A stretch of DNA of 39,354 bases from Gammaproteobacteria bacterium (GCA_015490755.1 WFXF01000074.1:1-39354), one strand, 5' to 3'; positions 32,795-39,354 are shown, counted from the first letter of the stretch. Numbers and translations are program-made. The notes: a model not told the origin generated them from the sequence alone.

Positions 32795-34020
32795 AGCGAT
32801 AATCCTCGGGTGAGTCGTGACTGCCTGCCTGCAATGCCCATGGCGTGCCTGGCCAATAGATGTTTGGCGGGTGGCAACAGGTCCAGCAGTGTCAGCACCT
32901 TATTGCGTGCGATTGCCACGGGAATGGAGGGTTGAGTGAACAGGCGAACCAAAGTGTCGGTGGCTGTCAGAACATTGCGATGATCTTGTTTACGCGCCTC
33001 GGCATACTGCTTTAGAGTGTTGATATCACCGGGATCATCTCCCTTTTGAGTCGCGTCTGCGATGGTTTCTGCCAGAGCAGCGACATCACGCAGCCCAAGG
33101 TTAAAGCCTTGTCCGGCGAGTGGGTGCAGGGAGTGAGCTGCATTTCCAATAATGGCAACGCGTGGGCGAACCTGCTCCAGTGCCTGAATGAGTTTAAGTG
33201 GATAAGCGAAGCGTGAGCCTGCTTTTGTTAAGCGACCCAGGCGATAGCCAAAACGCTCTTGCAGCCTTTTGAGAAAGGTCTCATCATCCAGATCAAGAAT
33301 CTCTTGCTGTTGATCGGTGCGGGCTGTCCAGACAACGGAGCAGCGATTTTCAGTCATCGGCAGTATGGCCAGTGGCCCGGTTTCAGTGAAGCGTTCAAAG
33401 GCTCTGTTTTGGTGAGGCAGCTCGGGTGTTACGTTCGTGATGATGGCGCTCTGCTGGTAGTTGCTGGTTTTTGTCTGAATGCCGAGCTTTTTACGGATGG
33501 CAGATTGCCCACCATCTGCGGCAACGAGCAGGCGAGTGGTGAGTGTTTTTGGTTTTGTAACGGTCAGTGTGACCTGGTTTGAGTCTGATTCGAGCGCTGT
33601 CCAGTGAGCCGGGCAGATGAAATCGATGTTACTCTGTTTATCGATATGCGCATGGAGGGTCTGGCCAATGCTGCGACCAGGCACGACATAACCAAGCGCA
33701 TCAACCGATTCATCTTTAGCGCTTAAATGGGTAAAGCCACAATGCCCTCGGTCTGAAACATGAATATGATCAATCGGGCAGGCATCATGTTGAAGTTCGT
33801 TCCAAACCCCAATGGATTTAAGAATGCGGTGGCTGCCGTAAGAGAGTGCGATGACCCGGTCATCATAACTGGGCTGGGTTTTAGCTGTGAGCGGGGTGCT
33901 TTCTATGATGCCGATGCGTAGCGGCTGGTTAGAAAGTGCAGCAGCAAGGCTGGCCCCCACCATGCCGCCGCCAATGATGAGAATGTCGTAATCAGTATCT
34001 CTCTTTATTGAACTGGACAT
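32791..34020 (-). CDS. ubiH: 2-octaprenyl-6-methoxyphenol hydroxylase UbiH
   Basis: About 409 residues, an FAD monooxygenase that hydroxylates the C1 position in ubiquinone synthesis. Markers: [10 protein letters not shown], the UbiH-type [21 protein letters not shown], and [22 protein letters not shown], where GN in place of GD is usual for UbiH. The start at 34020 is preferred to 34038 because GGAGGAG (34023-34029) lies directly upstream of it. That ribosome site and the first 16 bases are inside the end of tsaD, so the two genes are coupled. Confidence 0.93.
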
Positions 34021-35024
34021 AACTCCTCCATGGGCCATCGAGCCCGGGCGTTAAATGCAAGCGACTCATGTTGACCGGCTTTGAGCCTTAAATAGCCCGC
34101 ATAGGCAATCATGGCACCATTATCGGTGCAAAATTCAAAGCGAGGATAATAAACTTCGCTTTGTAATTTTTCTGAAAGCAGGTTCAATCGTTCTCGTAAA
34201 CGTTTATTGGCTCCAACACCACCGGCAATCACCAGCCGTTTAATACCTGTTTGTTTGATCGCACGTTGGCACTTGATTGCGATTGTATCTGCCACCGCCT
34301 CCTGGAAGGCGCAGGCAATATCGGCTTTGGTCTGCTCATCGGGTGAATTAAACTGATGAAGCGTGTTCACCGAAAATGTTTTAAGGCCACTGAAGCTAAA
34401 ATCAAGCCCGGGACGATTAGTCATGGGGCGTGGAAAGTGAAAACGATCAGGGTTGCCTTGTTTGGCGGCCTCGGTAATCGCAGGGCCGCCGGGATAACTG
34501 AGACCGAGCATTTTAGCGGTTTTATCGAACGCTTCACCGGCGGCATCGTCCAGTGTTTCCCCTAACAGCTCATAGCGACCCACTCCTTCAACCTTAATCA
34601 GTTGAGTATGACCGCCGGAAACAAGCAGGGCAATAAAAGGAAATTGGGGCGGTTTATCTTCCAGCATGGAGGCCAGAAGATGACCTTCCATATGGTGAAC
34701 AGCAATCGCGGGCACTTGCCATGCCAATGCCAGACTTCGTCCGATGGATGTGCCGACCAACAATGCACCAACCAAACCAGGGCCAGAAGTGTAAGCAACG
34801 CCCTGGATCTCCCGGGCTGAGACATTAGCCTCTTTCATGACTTGTTTGATGAGTGGAATGGTTTTTCGAATATGGTCACGGGAAGCTAATTCAGGCACAA
34901 CGCCGCCATACTCCACATGAAGTGCAATCTGACTATGAAGCGCATGCGCCATGATGCCCTGTTCAGCATCATAGATGGCGATGCCCGTTTCATCACATGA
35001 AGTTTCAATTCCGAGTATTTTCAT
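34005..35024 (-). CDS. tsaD: tRNA threonylcarbamoyladenosine transferase TsaD
   Basis: A 339-residue ASKHA-fold protein that, with TsaB and TsaE, transfers threonylcarbamoyl to A37 of ANN-decoding tRNAs. It begins [13 protein letters not shown]. The metal ligands H111 and H115 are in H-H-M-E-G-H, and the C-terminal D-N-G-A-M-I-A aspartate completes the site. G-G-H-T-Q-L and [11 protein letters not shown] are also present. Length is normal. It leads tsaD-ubiH-ubiI and diverges from the large surface-protein gene across 99 bases. Confidence 0.97.
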
Positions 35025-35129
35025 GTGTGTATAGTACCTGAAATGGTCGTTTTTTGTGATTTTAGTTTTTTCGCCAATATCCGCTACCGTTCATGATAAA
35101 CACTAAAAAAGTAACTCAAGGGAATGAAA

Positions 35130-38100
35130 ATGAAGAATAATCTGTTAATCTTTCAACGTTACAAGTTTGCCGCCACTTTAACGGGAATACTGTTGTCATG
35201 TCTATTGGCGACCGCTGTTTGGGCCAAGGGGGAGGCGACCAACATATATTCCTCGCCAAGTAATGCGGAAGCTCAGGCGCAATATACAGGTGTTATAGAT
35301 AATAATGTCTATCGCTGGGGGCAGGGAAGCGATGGTCAGGGTACGGATGGTAATCGACTGATTGATGGGTTCTCGCTGGATGGTGGTACAACACGCTACG
35401 ACTATCAGAGCGTTGCAGGTGTGGTGAGAATTATTCGTTCGAATAGCGATACGCCCTGTGGATTATTTGCTGAAACAACCGGAGTTGCTTTTAACTATCA
35501 GCCTGACTTTCCGGGCGATTCCGATGGTAAAAATTGTGATATGGCAAAGGTGATGGCAGGTCGAGTCATAAATGTTGGTGCACTGGATCTATTTAACAAT
35601 GTTGGAGGCGAAGCTAAAAATATAGAGCGAGTGGATTTTATTTTTAATAGCGGGATTACTGTTACAGCAGCCTCTTTAAATGTTGCAGGTCATGTTGTGA
35701 CTGAAAAGTCAGGTAATAATAGCGTCAAAATTGCCGCCATAACTGCTCTTGATGGATCGGGAAACCCTTCTGTATACGGTGATTTATTAACCATTTATGC
35801 TGAGGGCGATGCGAGCTGTTTAGCCCCCACAAATAATATCTGCTATGGAACCCCGGGAGGCAATAGAGAGTATGAGTTTCTTCATACCGCTGATGCAGCG
35901 GTTCCATTAGAAAAAGTGGGTGGCAATACCGAACCGCTGGGATTGGCGTTTGTTTCACAGGCTGATCTGGGTTTGGCGCAAGGTACAACCTATTATGGCT
36001 TCTCCTATTTTGCACCGGATGTTGATCCGGTGAACAATAATCTTCATGACCTGACTGATCCAGGCACTTTTCCTTCAGATACGAGCAAAGCTGGGGTTGG
36101 CCTGGGGGATGCAGATATATTTGGTGGCACTGCCGGATATTTTGTTCTGAACAGCTTGATGAAAAATATTTCAGGAGATGTCGTTGATGCATCTGCGAAT
36201 GGTATTGAAAATGTGACGGTGAGCTTGTATCGAAATGATGGTAGCGATGCAAGTGGGTATGATGCGGCAGATACATTATTGGAATCCGTTGTAACAAATG
36301 CTGGTGGTGTCTATAGTTTTTCTCGTGTGATGCCAGATATCTATATCATTCGGGTGGATAGTAGTGATAGCGATTTGACCACTGATGGTTATACAACGAA
36401 TACAGAAAACCTGATGGTGACCGTTGCCAATTCTGACCTTGTCAGTCAGCGCTTTAACTTTGTGTTACCGCAAATTACTGGCAGCGTATTTAGTGATGCA
36501 GACAGCGACAATATCAGGGATGCAGGCGAAGGTGTTTCAGGTGTCACGGTTCGTTTATACAGTGACCAAAATATGACCAGTCAGGTGGGTACTGACAAGG
36601 TGACCGATGGGGATGGTCTGTTTACTTTTAGCGATGTGGTTAATGGTGCGTACTTCCTGTTCGTGGATCAAGGCAGTAGCCAGGGTTTGAACGGGCTTGT
36701 AACCAGTACCGCCAACCCACTGTCAGTGATGGTGCAAAACGGTATTAATATAACAACCAGTTTTCCGTTTGTGGCAGTCCCACCTACAACCTATTCGTTA
36801 ATGGGCACTGTATTTCAAGATGAGGATGGTGATGGTCTGTTAGCGGGTAGTGGAGAATCCGGTATTAGTGGCGTGACTGTGACTCTTTTCGACAATAACA
36901 TGGCTCAAAAAGGAACGACTGATACGGCTTCTGATGGTACTTATACCTTCAATAGCGTCGTAGCGGGTGACTATAGCGTGCAGGTCGATTCTACGGATGG
37001 GCCGGCCGGATATGCAATCGCTCAATCTGACAACCCGGAAACAATCACTCTTGGTGCGAACACAACAGTCAACTTTCCATTTGGTGTTGATACCGATGGT
37101 GATGCCATTCCTGATGGCAATGATATTGATGATGATAACGATGGAATTCTTGACAGCGTTGAGCAAAGTGGAGGCAATGATGTTGATACCGATGGTGACG
37201 GTATTTATGACCGACTGGATTTAGACAGTGACAACGACGGTATTTTGGACGCTGTTGAGTCCGGTGCCAGTGATATGACAGCAGTGACCGTTGCAAATGG
37301 CCGTGTCACTGGCGCAGTGGGAGCCAATGGCTTGCCTGATTCGGTTGAGAGTGGCAGCGAAACTGGTAACGTTGGTTATGCATTGCTTGATACAGATGGC
37401 GATACAAAATCAGATTTTCGTGATTTAGATTCGGATAATGATGGAATCTCTGATGCCGTTGAAGGTGGCAGTACAGACCCTGATGGTAATGGTTATATTG
37501 GTAGTGGCGATCCTCTGACACTGGCCAGTGGTGACGTAAATAGCCATGGTATTCCTTTGCTTGCTGGCAGCGCTGTAGTTTTAACTCCACCGAATACAGA
37601 TGGTGATTCGGTTCCCGATTACCGCGATCTGGACAGTGATAATGATGGTATTATTGATGTTGTCGAGGCCGGTGGCACAGATGCAGAACCCAACGGGTAT
37701 ATTGGCTCGGGTTCTCCTCCAGCAATTAATGAGTTGGGAGTTCCCCTTGTAGGGTTGCTTGTTGTTGCTACGGACACAGATGGCGATGGTTTGCCAGATT
37801 TTCTGGAGCTGGATTCTGATAATGATGGCATGAAAGACATTGTTGAAGCAGGTTATGTCGATAGTAATGGGGATGGTCGGGTCGATAACTTTTCCGATGC
37901 AGACGGTGATGGAGCGGGTAATCCGCTTGGGTTTTCCGCAGCAGCAGATTTTCCTGATATTGATTTCGATGGTATTCCAGATTATCAAGATAAAGTGAGT
38001 CAGCCGCCACGCTTGGAAACAGGGCTGGATGGTATGGGGTGTACACTTGGTGACAATCGTTCCGTTGACCCCATATTTCCACTGCTTATTTTATTTGCAT

Positions 38101-39200
38101 CCATATATCTGTTGCGCGGACGCTTTTTGAAAGGACGTGATAAAAAAAAAGAAGGGAGGTTAGCTGCCAAAAGACTCAGCGTGATGTTTGTCGGAATGGT
38201 ATTAATATTTCCCGTAACACTCTCTTCAGCCGATGAAGAAACAGAGTTTCAAAGCCGTTGGTATGGTGGTTTGGGAATTGGTATTTCTGAATTAGAGCCA
38301 GACCCTAACAGCACTTCATTTACTGTTGATGAAACGCGTAGCAAAGGCGGCAAACTGTTTCTGGGTTATGATTTGTTTAAACGCTTAAGCATTGAAGCCT
38401 ATTATTCAGATGTTGGTGAAGCAGAGATTGGCTCAACTTATCCTGGTATTTCTGACGGCACGATCGGTTATAAAGACTACGGTATCAGCGCTCTGTATTA
38501 TGTTTTTAAACAGCATGAAGCTCACGAAGGTTTTGGCTTGTTCGGTCGAGTGGGCTTGGGGCGAATGAACAATGATACCGAGCTGCCTTATGAGCGGCTC
38601 AATGATAATCATGCCATGCTTGGTGCAGGCTTGGAGTACGCTTTTGACAATGGTTTTGCTCTGCGCGCGGAGCTTGACTATTACGATACAGATTCCCGTT
38701 TGTATGCGCTGAGCTTTATGAAGCGTTTTGGCAGTAATAAACAGGAAAAACTTGTGCCCGAACCTCAATTAGAGCCAGAACCCATTGTAGCTGTAGTTCC
38801 AGTAGCACCTGTTGTTATGGAACCAGAGATCGTGCCAGCACCACCCATCGTGGAAGCGGTGACAATAGGTCAGCTTGGTATCGTCTACTTTGATACAGAC
38901 TCTTTCGCTCTCACCGCAACAGAGCGTGCCACTCTTGATGACGTGGCTGCTGAATTATTGCGTGTGCCAGAAGCTAGGATTGAAGTACTGGGACACACCG
39001 ACAGTCGAGGCTCAAATGCTTATAATCATCTTCTGTCAGAAAGGCGGGCGTATGCGGCTATCGACTACCTGAACAGTAAAGGAATTTCATATAGCCGCAT
39101 GAGAGCCCGAGCTCTTGGTGAAGATAGCCCCGTTGCGAGTAATCAAAATGGAGAGGGGCGTAGACTGAACCGTCGAGTGGAGTTTCGAGTGATCGAATAA
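35130..39200 (+). CDS. SdrD/thrombospondin-repeat surface protein fused to an OmpA-family protein
   Basis: 1356 residues. The ATG at 35130 is preferred to 35124 because AAGGG (35118-35122) is 7 bases from it. Order: signal peptide to about 32; an uncharacterised beta-rich region (33-345); three SdrD/Cna-B-like domains (about 349-448, 449-554, 555-653); thrombospondin type 3 Asp repeats (about 654-956). Next is a CTERM-like end: Cys971, V-D-P at 979-981, hydrophobic 982-995, then R-G-R. Basic loop 996-1015 follows. A second signal-like helix is at about 1016-1031 with S-S-A at 1032-1034. An 8-strand-type beta-barrel (about 1042-1205), a Pro/Glu linker and an OmpA peptidoglycan-binding domain (1246-1356, with G-H-T-D-S-R-G and L-S-E-R-R-A) end it. 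Each half looks like a whole exported protein. Role: probably surface display plus an outer-membrane anchor; function unknown. Confidence 0.9.
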   Translation: MKNNLLIFQRYKFAATLTGILLSCLLATAVWAKGEATNIYSSPSNAEAQAQYTGVIDNNVYRWGQGSDGQGTDGNRLIDGFSLDGGTTRYDYQSVAGVVRIIRSNSDTPCGLFAETTGVAFNYQPDFPGDSDGKNCDMAKVMAGRVINVGALDLFNNVGGEAKNIERVDFIFNSGITVTAASLNVAGHVVTEKSGNNSVKIAAITALDGSGNPSVYGDLLTIYAEGDASCLAPTNNICYGTPGGNREYEFLHTADAAVPLEKVGGNTEPLGLAFVSQADLGLAQGTTYYGFSYFAPDVDPVNNNLHDLTDPGTFPSDTSKAGVGLGDADIFGGTAGYFVLNSLMKNISGDVVDASANGIENVTVSLYRNDGSDASGYDAADTLLESVVTNAGGVYSFSRVMPDIYIIRVDSSDSDLTTDGYTTNTENLMVTVANSDLVSQRFNFVLPQITGSVFSDADSDNIRDAGEGVSGVTVRLYSDQNMTSQVGTDKVTDGDGLFTFSDVVNGAYFLFVDQGSSQGLNGLVTSTANPLSVMVQNGINITTSFPFVAVPPTTYSLMGTVFQDEDGDGLLAGSGESGISGVTVTLFDNNMAQKGTTDTASDGTYTFNSVVAGDYSVQVDSTDGPAGYAIAQSDNPETITLGANTTVNFPFGVDTDGDAIPDGNDIDDDNDGILDSVEQSGGNDVDTDGDGIYDRLDLDSDNDGILDAVESGASDMTAVTVANGRVTGAVGANGLPDSVESGSETGNVGYALLDTDGDTKSDFRDLDSDNDGISDAVEGGSTDPDGNGYIGSGDPLTLASGDVNSHGIPLLAGSAVVLTPPNTDGDSVPDYRDLDSDNDGIIDVVEAGGTDAEPNGYIGSGSPPAINELGVPLVGLLVVATDTDGDGLPDFLELDSDNDGMKDIVEAGYVDSNGDGRVDNFSDADGDGAGNPLGFSAAADFPDIDFDGIPDYQDKVSQPPRLETGLDGMGCTLGDNRSVDPIFPLLILFASIYLLRGRFLKGRDKKKEGRLAAKRLSVMFVGMVLIFPVTLSSADEETEFQSRWYGGLGIGISELEPDPNSTSFTVDETRSKGGKLFLGYDLFKRLSIEAYYSDVGEAEIGSTYPGISDGTIGYKDYGISALYYVFKQHEAHEGFGLFGRVGLGRMNNDTELPYERLNDNHAMLGAGLEYAFDNGFALRAELDYYDTDSRLYALSFMKRFGSNKQEKLVPEPQLEPEPIVAVVPVAPVVMEPEIVPAPPIVEAVTIGQLGIVYFDTDSFALTATERATLDDVAAELLRVPEARIEVLGHTDSRGSNAYNHLLSERRAYAAIDYLNSKGISYSRMRARALGEDSPVASNQNGEGRRLNRRVEFRVIE
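38142..38159 (+). other. A9 homopolymer at the fusion junction, followed by GGGAGG
   Basis: Nine A residues (38142-38150) encode three lysines in the basic loop between the two halves of the fused protein. With eight A residues the frame would end at TAG seven codons after the Asp codon at 38139. A GGGAGG element (38154-38159) follows. A9 runs are known sites of transcriptional slippage, of phase variation and of sequencing error. Confidence 0.6.
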
Positions 39201-39217
39201 ATAAGGAACGTTCACGA

Positions 39218-39353
39218 AATAACTTCTGCACTCTGGCTTGCCCTTTTACTCCGGCTCAAACGATCTCAATCGTTACATAGGCCAGCAGCTATGCGCCTCT
39301 TGAGATCGTTTGAGCCGAAGCAAAATTTCTACGCAATAGTTGCAGAAGTTATT
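39218..39353. repeat. Nested inverted repeat, MITE- or IS-end-like
   Basis: Outer arms AATAACTTCTGCA (39218-39230) and its perfect complement (39341-39353) enclose 18-base arms at 39252-39269 and 39300-39317, also perfect. These in turn enclose CATAG (39276-39280) and CTATG (39289-39293) around an 8-base loop. No reading frame of note lies inside. The element could fold into a long hairpin, and may end transcription of the preceding gene. It reaches within one base of the window edge, so a longer element cannot be excluded. Confidence 0.75.
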
Positions 39354-39354
39354 C

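Follow-up and report, generated by a model that had tools for sequence, protein, structure and literature searches.

What does a bacterium make from a gene in which the sorting signal of a surface protein is followed, in the same frame, by a complete outer membrane protein? The question is raised by a 39,354-nt stretch of gammaproteobacterial DNA (WFXF01000074.1, GCA_015490755.1; the whole stretch is referred to here as the window), in which one uninterrupted open reading frame (ORF) at 35124–39200 on the plus strand encodes 1358 amino acids. CTERM sorting signals are cut by intramembrane proteases beside their hydrophobic helix, and their basic end is cytoplasmic. In the window a signal of this kind, JDVT-CTERM, lies inside the protein, ahead of a second hydrophobic helix and an OmpA-type protein. 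On sequence comparison we consider it quite probable that the gene encodes a two-product polyprotein, cut by the protease MrtJ at the first helix and by signal peptidase I after the second. Direct support comes from the fusion itself, from a hairpin and cleavage motif that are conserved, from a matching gene pair that is conserved too, from the absence of most internal starts in fused genes and from the presence of the protease gene.

Residues are numbered here from 35124; the original prediction, made from the sequence of the window, counted from a second ATG at 35130, hence its numbers are two lower. It had recognised a CTERM-type end in a Cys plus V-D-P motif, a hydrophobic helix and an Arg cluster, and the curated JDVT-CTERM model (NF033191) matches this region above its cutoff. 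Cys973 and V-D-P stand immediately N-terminal of helix 1 (~983–997). The long in-frame continuation that it described amounts to 357 residues beyond the model match, so the signal does not have the C-terminal position of JDVT-CTERM proteins. The predicted loop with ten Lys/Arg and two acidic residues is found between the helices, as is the second hydrophobic helix (~1018–1032), after which L-S-S-A1036 precedes D-E-E. The n-, h- and c-region of an internal signal peptide can be read here from the sequence, ahead of the barrel. Both OmpA-family domains, the barrel and the C-terminal domain, score above cutoff (PF01389 and PF00691), which places the part after the hairpin in the OmpA family, as had been proposed.

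In the mechanism suggested by this layout, the N-terminal signal peptide would export an adhesin-like passenger, composed of SdrD B and DxDxDG repeats, until transfer halts in the inner membrane at helix 1, which is the JDVT-CTERM signal. The Lys/Arg-rich loop would remain cytoplasmic and double as the n-region of the second, internal signal peptide, with helix 2 re-starting export. Signal peptidase I would then cut after SSA1036, releasing the OmpA-type protein toward the outer membrane, and, once Cys973 has been modified, MrtJ, a JDVT-specific intramembrane protease, would cut helix 1 at its periplasmic side. The passenger would be anchored via its new C-terminus and the residual hairpin discarded. 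Both partners would be made one-to-one, like a pair of the TraA/TraB type. The topology, both cuts, the final locations and the joint function are what we infer.

Could the internal position of the signal reflect chance extension of an ordinary CTERM protein? The JDVT-CTERM model was searched against 369 gammaproteobacterial genomes, and matches were present in 45. Besides the window, 70 matches were examined, and in 67 of these the signal ended no more than 25 residues from the C-terminus. The other three (L054, L072 and L073), which belong to three other families, read on in frame through a second hydrophobic helix and a signal-peptidase-type site to an OmpA barrel. Chance extension is rejected, as all three long tails carry the same signal-peptide/OmpA-barrel module.

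A different concern is a run of nine A (A9) within the loop, exactly between the two halves. A sequencing or assembly error at this run could have joined two genes which are separate in the living cell; with eight A the first protein would have a usual-looking JDVT-CTERM terminus, ...GRDKKKGG*, and the paralogue in the same genome (L002) is indeed split. In that version, however, the second gene would have no start codon combining downstream basic residues with a good Shine-Dalgarno sequence. A genome scan for close barrels found the same fusion on four metagenome contigs (WFVH01000099.1, JAJRUX010000148.1, DRMK01000129.1 and WFXP01000053.1), with barrels 72–75% identical, loops differing in length and sequence, and no A9 run. 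The run is absent from the junction in all four close fused orthologues (L208–L211), and these four and more than 20 other fusions are open through the junction. The original prediction had feared a conserved stop between the halves and an extra base in this assembly; the orthologues have neither a junction stop nor the run. Because fused orthologues with different loops lack A9, it is not the cause of the architecture, and a frameshift or assembly artefact is rejected as its explanation. For this locus alone we regard an error as very improbable, and one here would leave the recurrent fusion in other genomes untouched.

Runs of nine A are known slippage sites. Transcriptional or translational slippage at A9 would give a mixture of products, some ending after the sorting signal and some reading into OmpA, so that dosage would not be one-to-one in this species; without one of the A the frame stops directly behind GG. 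The fused orthologues do not share the run, though, and we think slippage unlikely. If it took place, it would be a possible switch between anchored-only and two-product output. For this one contig the run remains a possible sequencing or slippage risk.

If the polyprotein is equivalent to two genes, its relatives should be informative, and searching each half separately had been proposed for this reason. Adjacent gene pairs are found in relatives, and the same in-frame fusion occurs in other families. In the same-genome paralogue L002 (contig C33), a protein with a CTERM-like tail is followed by a separate gene for a signal peptide, barrel and OmpA domain; the second gene begins with GTG, preceded by a Shine-Dalgarno-like GAAGGGA, and the stop of the first lies only a few bases ahead of this start codon. 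The orthologue of L002 in a genome of the same genus (G002) is fused. A barrel profile was also run against the 369 genomes and the 80 best loci were parsed: in 28 (counting L142, with its hairpin further upstream, and L177, truncated by a contig end) the barrel continues the frame of a CTERM-type protein, in 31 the barrel gene is separate but directly follows a CTERM-type gene, and the other 21 are solitary or not classifiable. On the barrel tree, which gives no direction of change and in which L142 is unlabelled, 14 changes between fused and split are required, at least six of them forced by well-supported branches. Beyond Gammaproteobacteria, a search across the phylum gave no strong members of the family. 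This repeated joining and separation of the same two genes points to a natural bacterial polyprotein that would be cut in the membrane.

The fused members do not all carry the same type of signal. JDVT-CTERM signals are present in L130, L131, L134, L168 and L209–L211. Many other fused relatives have a Gly-Gly-type signal before helix 1, and four of ten tested passed the TIGR03501 cutoff. Three fused loci (L147, L205 and L129) have a helix-1 signal scoring below every curated CTERM model, possibly representing undescribed sorting-signal types. In another three (L142, L166 and L167), a long charged spacer rich in Ala, Glu and Lys separates the barrel from the second signal peptide.

The junctions themselves were measured in 29 fused genes. 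The inter-helix loop has a net charge of +2 to +8 (mean 4.1) and an AxA-type site follows helix 2 in every one, in keeping with the positive-inside hairpin and signal-peptidase site of the original prediction. In several, such as L153, L154 and L164 with RRRR, one and the same Arg cluster belongs to the sorting signal and forms the n-region of the second signal peptide. It is extremely improbable that the gene yields a single uncleaved protein, in which the hairpin would hold passenger and barrel in one chain: a barrel held by a hairpin in the inner membrane would have little chance of arriving in the outer one, every fused junction measured retains an AxA-type site, and the split versions show that both halves work as separate chains.

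Alternatively, the OmpA protein could be a separate translation product, made from an internal start in the loop or by re-initiation, with the in-frame fusion incidental. Split relatives do have real starts with Shine-Dalgarno sequences, in genes which overlap or nearly touch, and the window contains GGGAGG at 38154–38159 and a GTG-ATG pair at 38181–38186. This pair, however, lies inside helix 2, past the last basic residue, and GGGAGG is more than 20 nt upstream. In 14 of the 29 fused junctions there is no ATG, GTG or TTG between the helices at all. A usable start, defined with thresholds chosen here as a start codon with a Shine-Dalgarno energy of -4.5 or below and at least one basic residue following, was present in 1/29 fused junctions versus 30/50 split genes (Fisher p ~2e-7, to be read as indicative, because split genes offered a longer stretch to scan and the rows are related). 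Because of this difference, internal initiation, as judged from the junction sequences, cannot be the general source of the OmpA product, and separate translation products are quite improbable for the gene in the window. Among the new results, the loss of internal starts in fused junctions argues most strongly for a true polyprotein.

The proposed cut at helix 1 is assigned to MrtJ. The pairing of MrtJ with JDVT-CTERM is based on gene neighbourhood, and MrtJ is a close relative of the experimentally tested myxosortase MrtX (PMC11980579). In this genome (99.67% complete) the internal signal is the only JDVT-CTERM match, and a single MrtJ scores above cutoff (G000:C83:13225-13509, 108.7 bits, cutoff 75); with a one-to-one pairing, MrtJ is left without any other recognised substrate. 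In at least eight genomes, split clusters have the order JDVT-CTERM, OmpA, MrtJ, with MrtJ directly behind the OmpA gene (contigs G212:C79, G312:C54, G066:C44, G045:C8, G306:C34, G078:C115, G185:C37 and G317:C149). In genome G180 a fused gene reaches a contig end, and contig C131, which overlaps it exactly by 91 bases, completes the OmpA protein and then encodes MrtJ. Three-gene clusters of this order (L132, L133, L135, L138, L140, L141, L143 and L152) extend the published two-gene MrtJ neighbourhood. For the Gly-Gly-type fusions, rhombosortase (TIGR03902) scored above cutoff in 24 of 25 genomes tested and is therefore a candidate enzyme; GlyGly-CTERM is known to be a transferable rhombosortase signal (PMC13393428).

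Several observations weigh against cleavage of the polyprotein by this route. MrtJ is located on another contig in this genome and not beside the fused gene, and the named records of the close orthologues are all metagenome assemblies. A structure model of the junction region, predicted from a five-sequence alignment, is reliable in the OmpA domain only (mean predicted local distance difference test score, pLDDT, 45.9); its order of helix, helix and strands agrees with the proposal but at this confidence proves nothing. Between L210 and L211 the loop and helix 2 are fast evolving, with non-synonymous (dN) and synonymous (dS) divergence of 0.19 and 0.13, respectively; this pair is uninformative about codon-level selection on the junction, and selection here looks to act on hydrophobicity rather than sequence.

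Each part of the gene belongs to a known type of system. In Myxococcus xanthus there is a four-base overlap between the ORFs of traA and traB, whose mutants share one phenotype (PMC3325183). As here, a CTERM-tagged surface protein with a Cys-type signal is immediately followed by an OmpA-domain envelope protein; unlike here, there are two ORFs, and the passenger domains differ. Because TraA (MYXO-CTERM) and TraB (OmpA domain) have overlapping ORFs and are both needed for one function, the OmpA protein is by analogy likely to be the partner of the passenger. Membership of the TraB family itself was rejected (NF033763, 63.4 bits against a cutoff of 700, OmpA domain only). With the JDVT-CTERM/MrtJ system (NF033191/NF033192; PMC11980579) the window's genome shares both the signal and the cognate glutamic intramembrane protease, each above cutoff, but here the signal stands inside the chain, with a second signal peptide and an OmpA protein behind it. 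The published JDVT neighbourhood consists of MrtJ and one JDVT-CTERM protein (PMC11980579), whereas the relatives described here often have an OmpA gene between them. GlyGly-CTERM signals of the rhombosortase system (TIGR03501/TIGR03902; PMC3237569, PMC13393428) are normally C-terminal and in separate genes, in contrast to their internal position in the fused relatives, and a text search of the 2011 GlyGly-CTERM paper found no OmpA and no fused or internal signals (PMC3237569).

The sortase-associated protein PdsO (TIGR03789) is another OmpA-domain protein dedicated to a surface-protein sorting system, although its sorting enzyme is different; membership was rejected here too (63.7 bits against a cutoff of 152.2, OmpA domain only). 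A precedent for the polyprotein itself is FbcH, the cytochrome b/c1 precursor of Bradyrhizobium japonicum, which is cut by signal peptidase at an internal signal peptide. The gene in the window matches this type in being a single ORF with a predicted internal signal peptide and with homologues in separate genes; FbcH, however, comprises respiratory complex subunits, has no sorting signal and involves one protease only. A search of the open-access literature retrieved neither FbcH nor any other bacterial signal-peptidase polyprotein, and no description of an internal CTERM signal or a CTERM-OmpA fusion. While each part is known, the combination of an internal CTERM signal with an OmpA protein was not found described in the open literature.

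The features of the gene are listed in the table. Its many DxDxDG repeats, which recur in the split homologue L002, probably form a calcium-binding stalk. Divergent from the gene lies what we take to be a tsaD-like gene (34005–35024), and an Rfam scan of the window gave no match. The contig ends in a palindromic repeat (39205–39354) with 13-base terminal inverted repeats and a 37-base inner inverted repeat. More than 20 near-full copies of ~147–150 bases are present in the genome, several at contig ends; the element resembles a miniature inverted-repeat transposable element (MITE) and probably broke the assembly.

Table. Features of the polyprotein gene in the window; a slash marks a predicted cleavage site.
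Feature	Position	Strand	Evidence
Whole polyprotein ORF	35124..39200	+	Single open frame, 1358 aa
N-terminal signal peptide, residues 1-34, AVWA34/KGEA	35124..35225	+	Sequence by eye; hydrophobic peak 15-29; inferred cut site
SdrD B-like repeats of passenger	36177..37115	+	PF17210, three stretches; SdrD model match residues 352-664
DxDxDG (thrombospondin type-3-like) repeats	37086..38003	+	Read from translation; no curated model match
JDVT-CTERM sorting signal (Cys973, VDP, helix 1), internal not terminal	38037..38126	+	NF033191, 31.8 bits, cutoff 27
Predicted cytoplasmic loop, residues 998-1017, RGRFLKGRDKKKEGRLAAKR	38115..38174	+	Ten Lys/Arg, two acidic residues
Run of nine A inside loop, possible slippage or sequencing-error site	38142..38150	+	Sequence
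Internal signal peptide h- and c-region, SSA1036/DEE	38175..38231	+	AxA-type site in 29/29 fused junctions
OmpA-like outer-membrane beta-barrel, residues 1045-1186	38256..38681	+	PF01389 OmpA_membrane, 29.7 bits, cutoff 21
OmpA peptidoglycan-binding domain, residues 1255-1350	38886..39173	+	PF00691, 69.7 bits, cutoff 27.2; relatives with solved structures

The sequence evidence thus supports the polyprotein interpretation first proposed for this locus, and extends it by a cognate protease (MrtJ), by fusions with GlyGly-type signals and by the finding that fused genes have mostly lost their internal starts. It seems likely that the gene represents a recurrent class of gammaproteobacterial polyprotein, in which the sorting signal works internally, the hairpin is cut in one leg by an MrtJ- or rhombosortase-type intramembrane protease and in the other by signal peptidase I, a membrane protease of a different family, one Arg/Lys cluster serves both signals, and an anchored protein and its OmpA partner are produced one-to-one. 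CTERM signals have been defined and searched as protein ends; where one is used internally, automatic annotation reads a single giant OmpA protein and misses both products. The fusion is also a test case for whether MrtJ and rhombosortase need a free C-terminus. The link of an OmpA-type outer-membrane partner with two different sorting systems, which recalls TraAB, is relevant to how CTERM proteins arrive at the cell surface, and the repeated fusion and splitting is strong genetic evidence that both products work together in fixed proportion.

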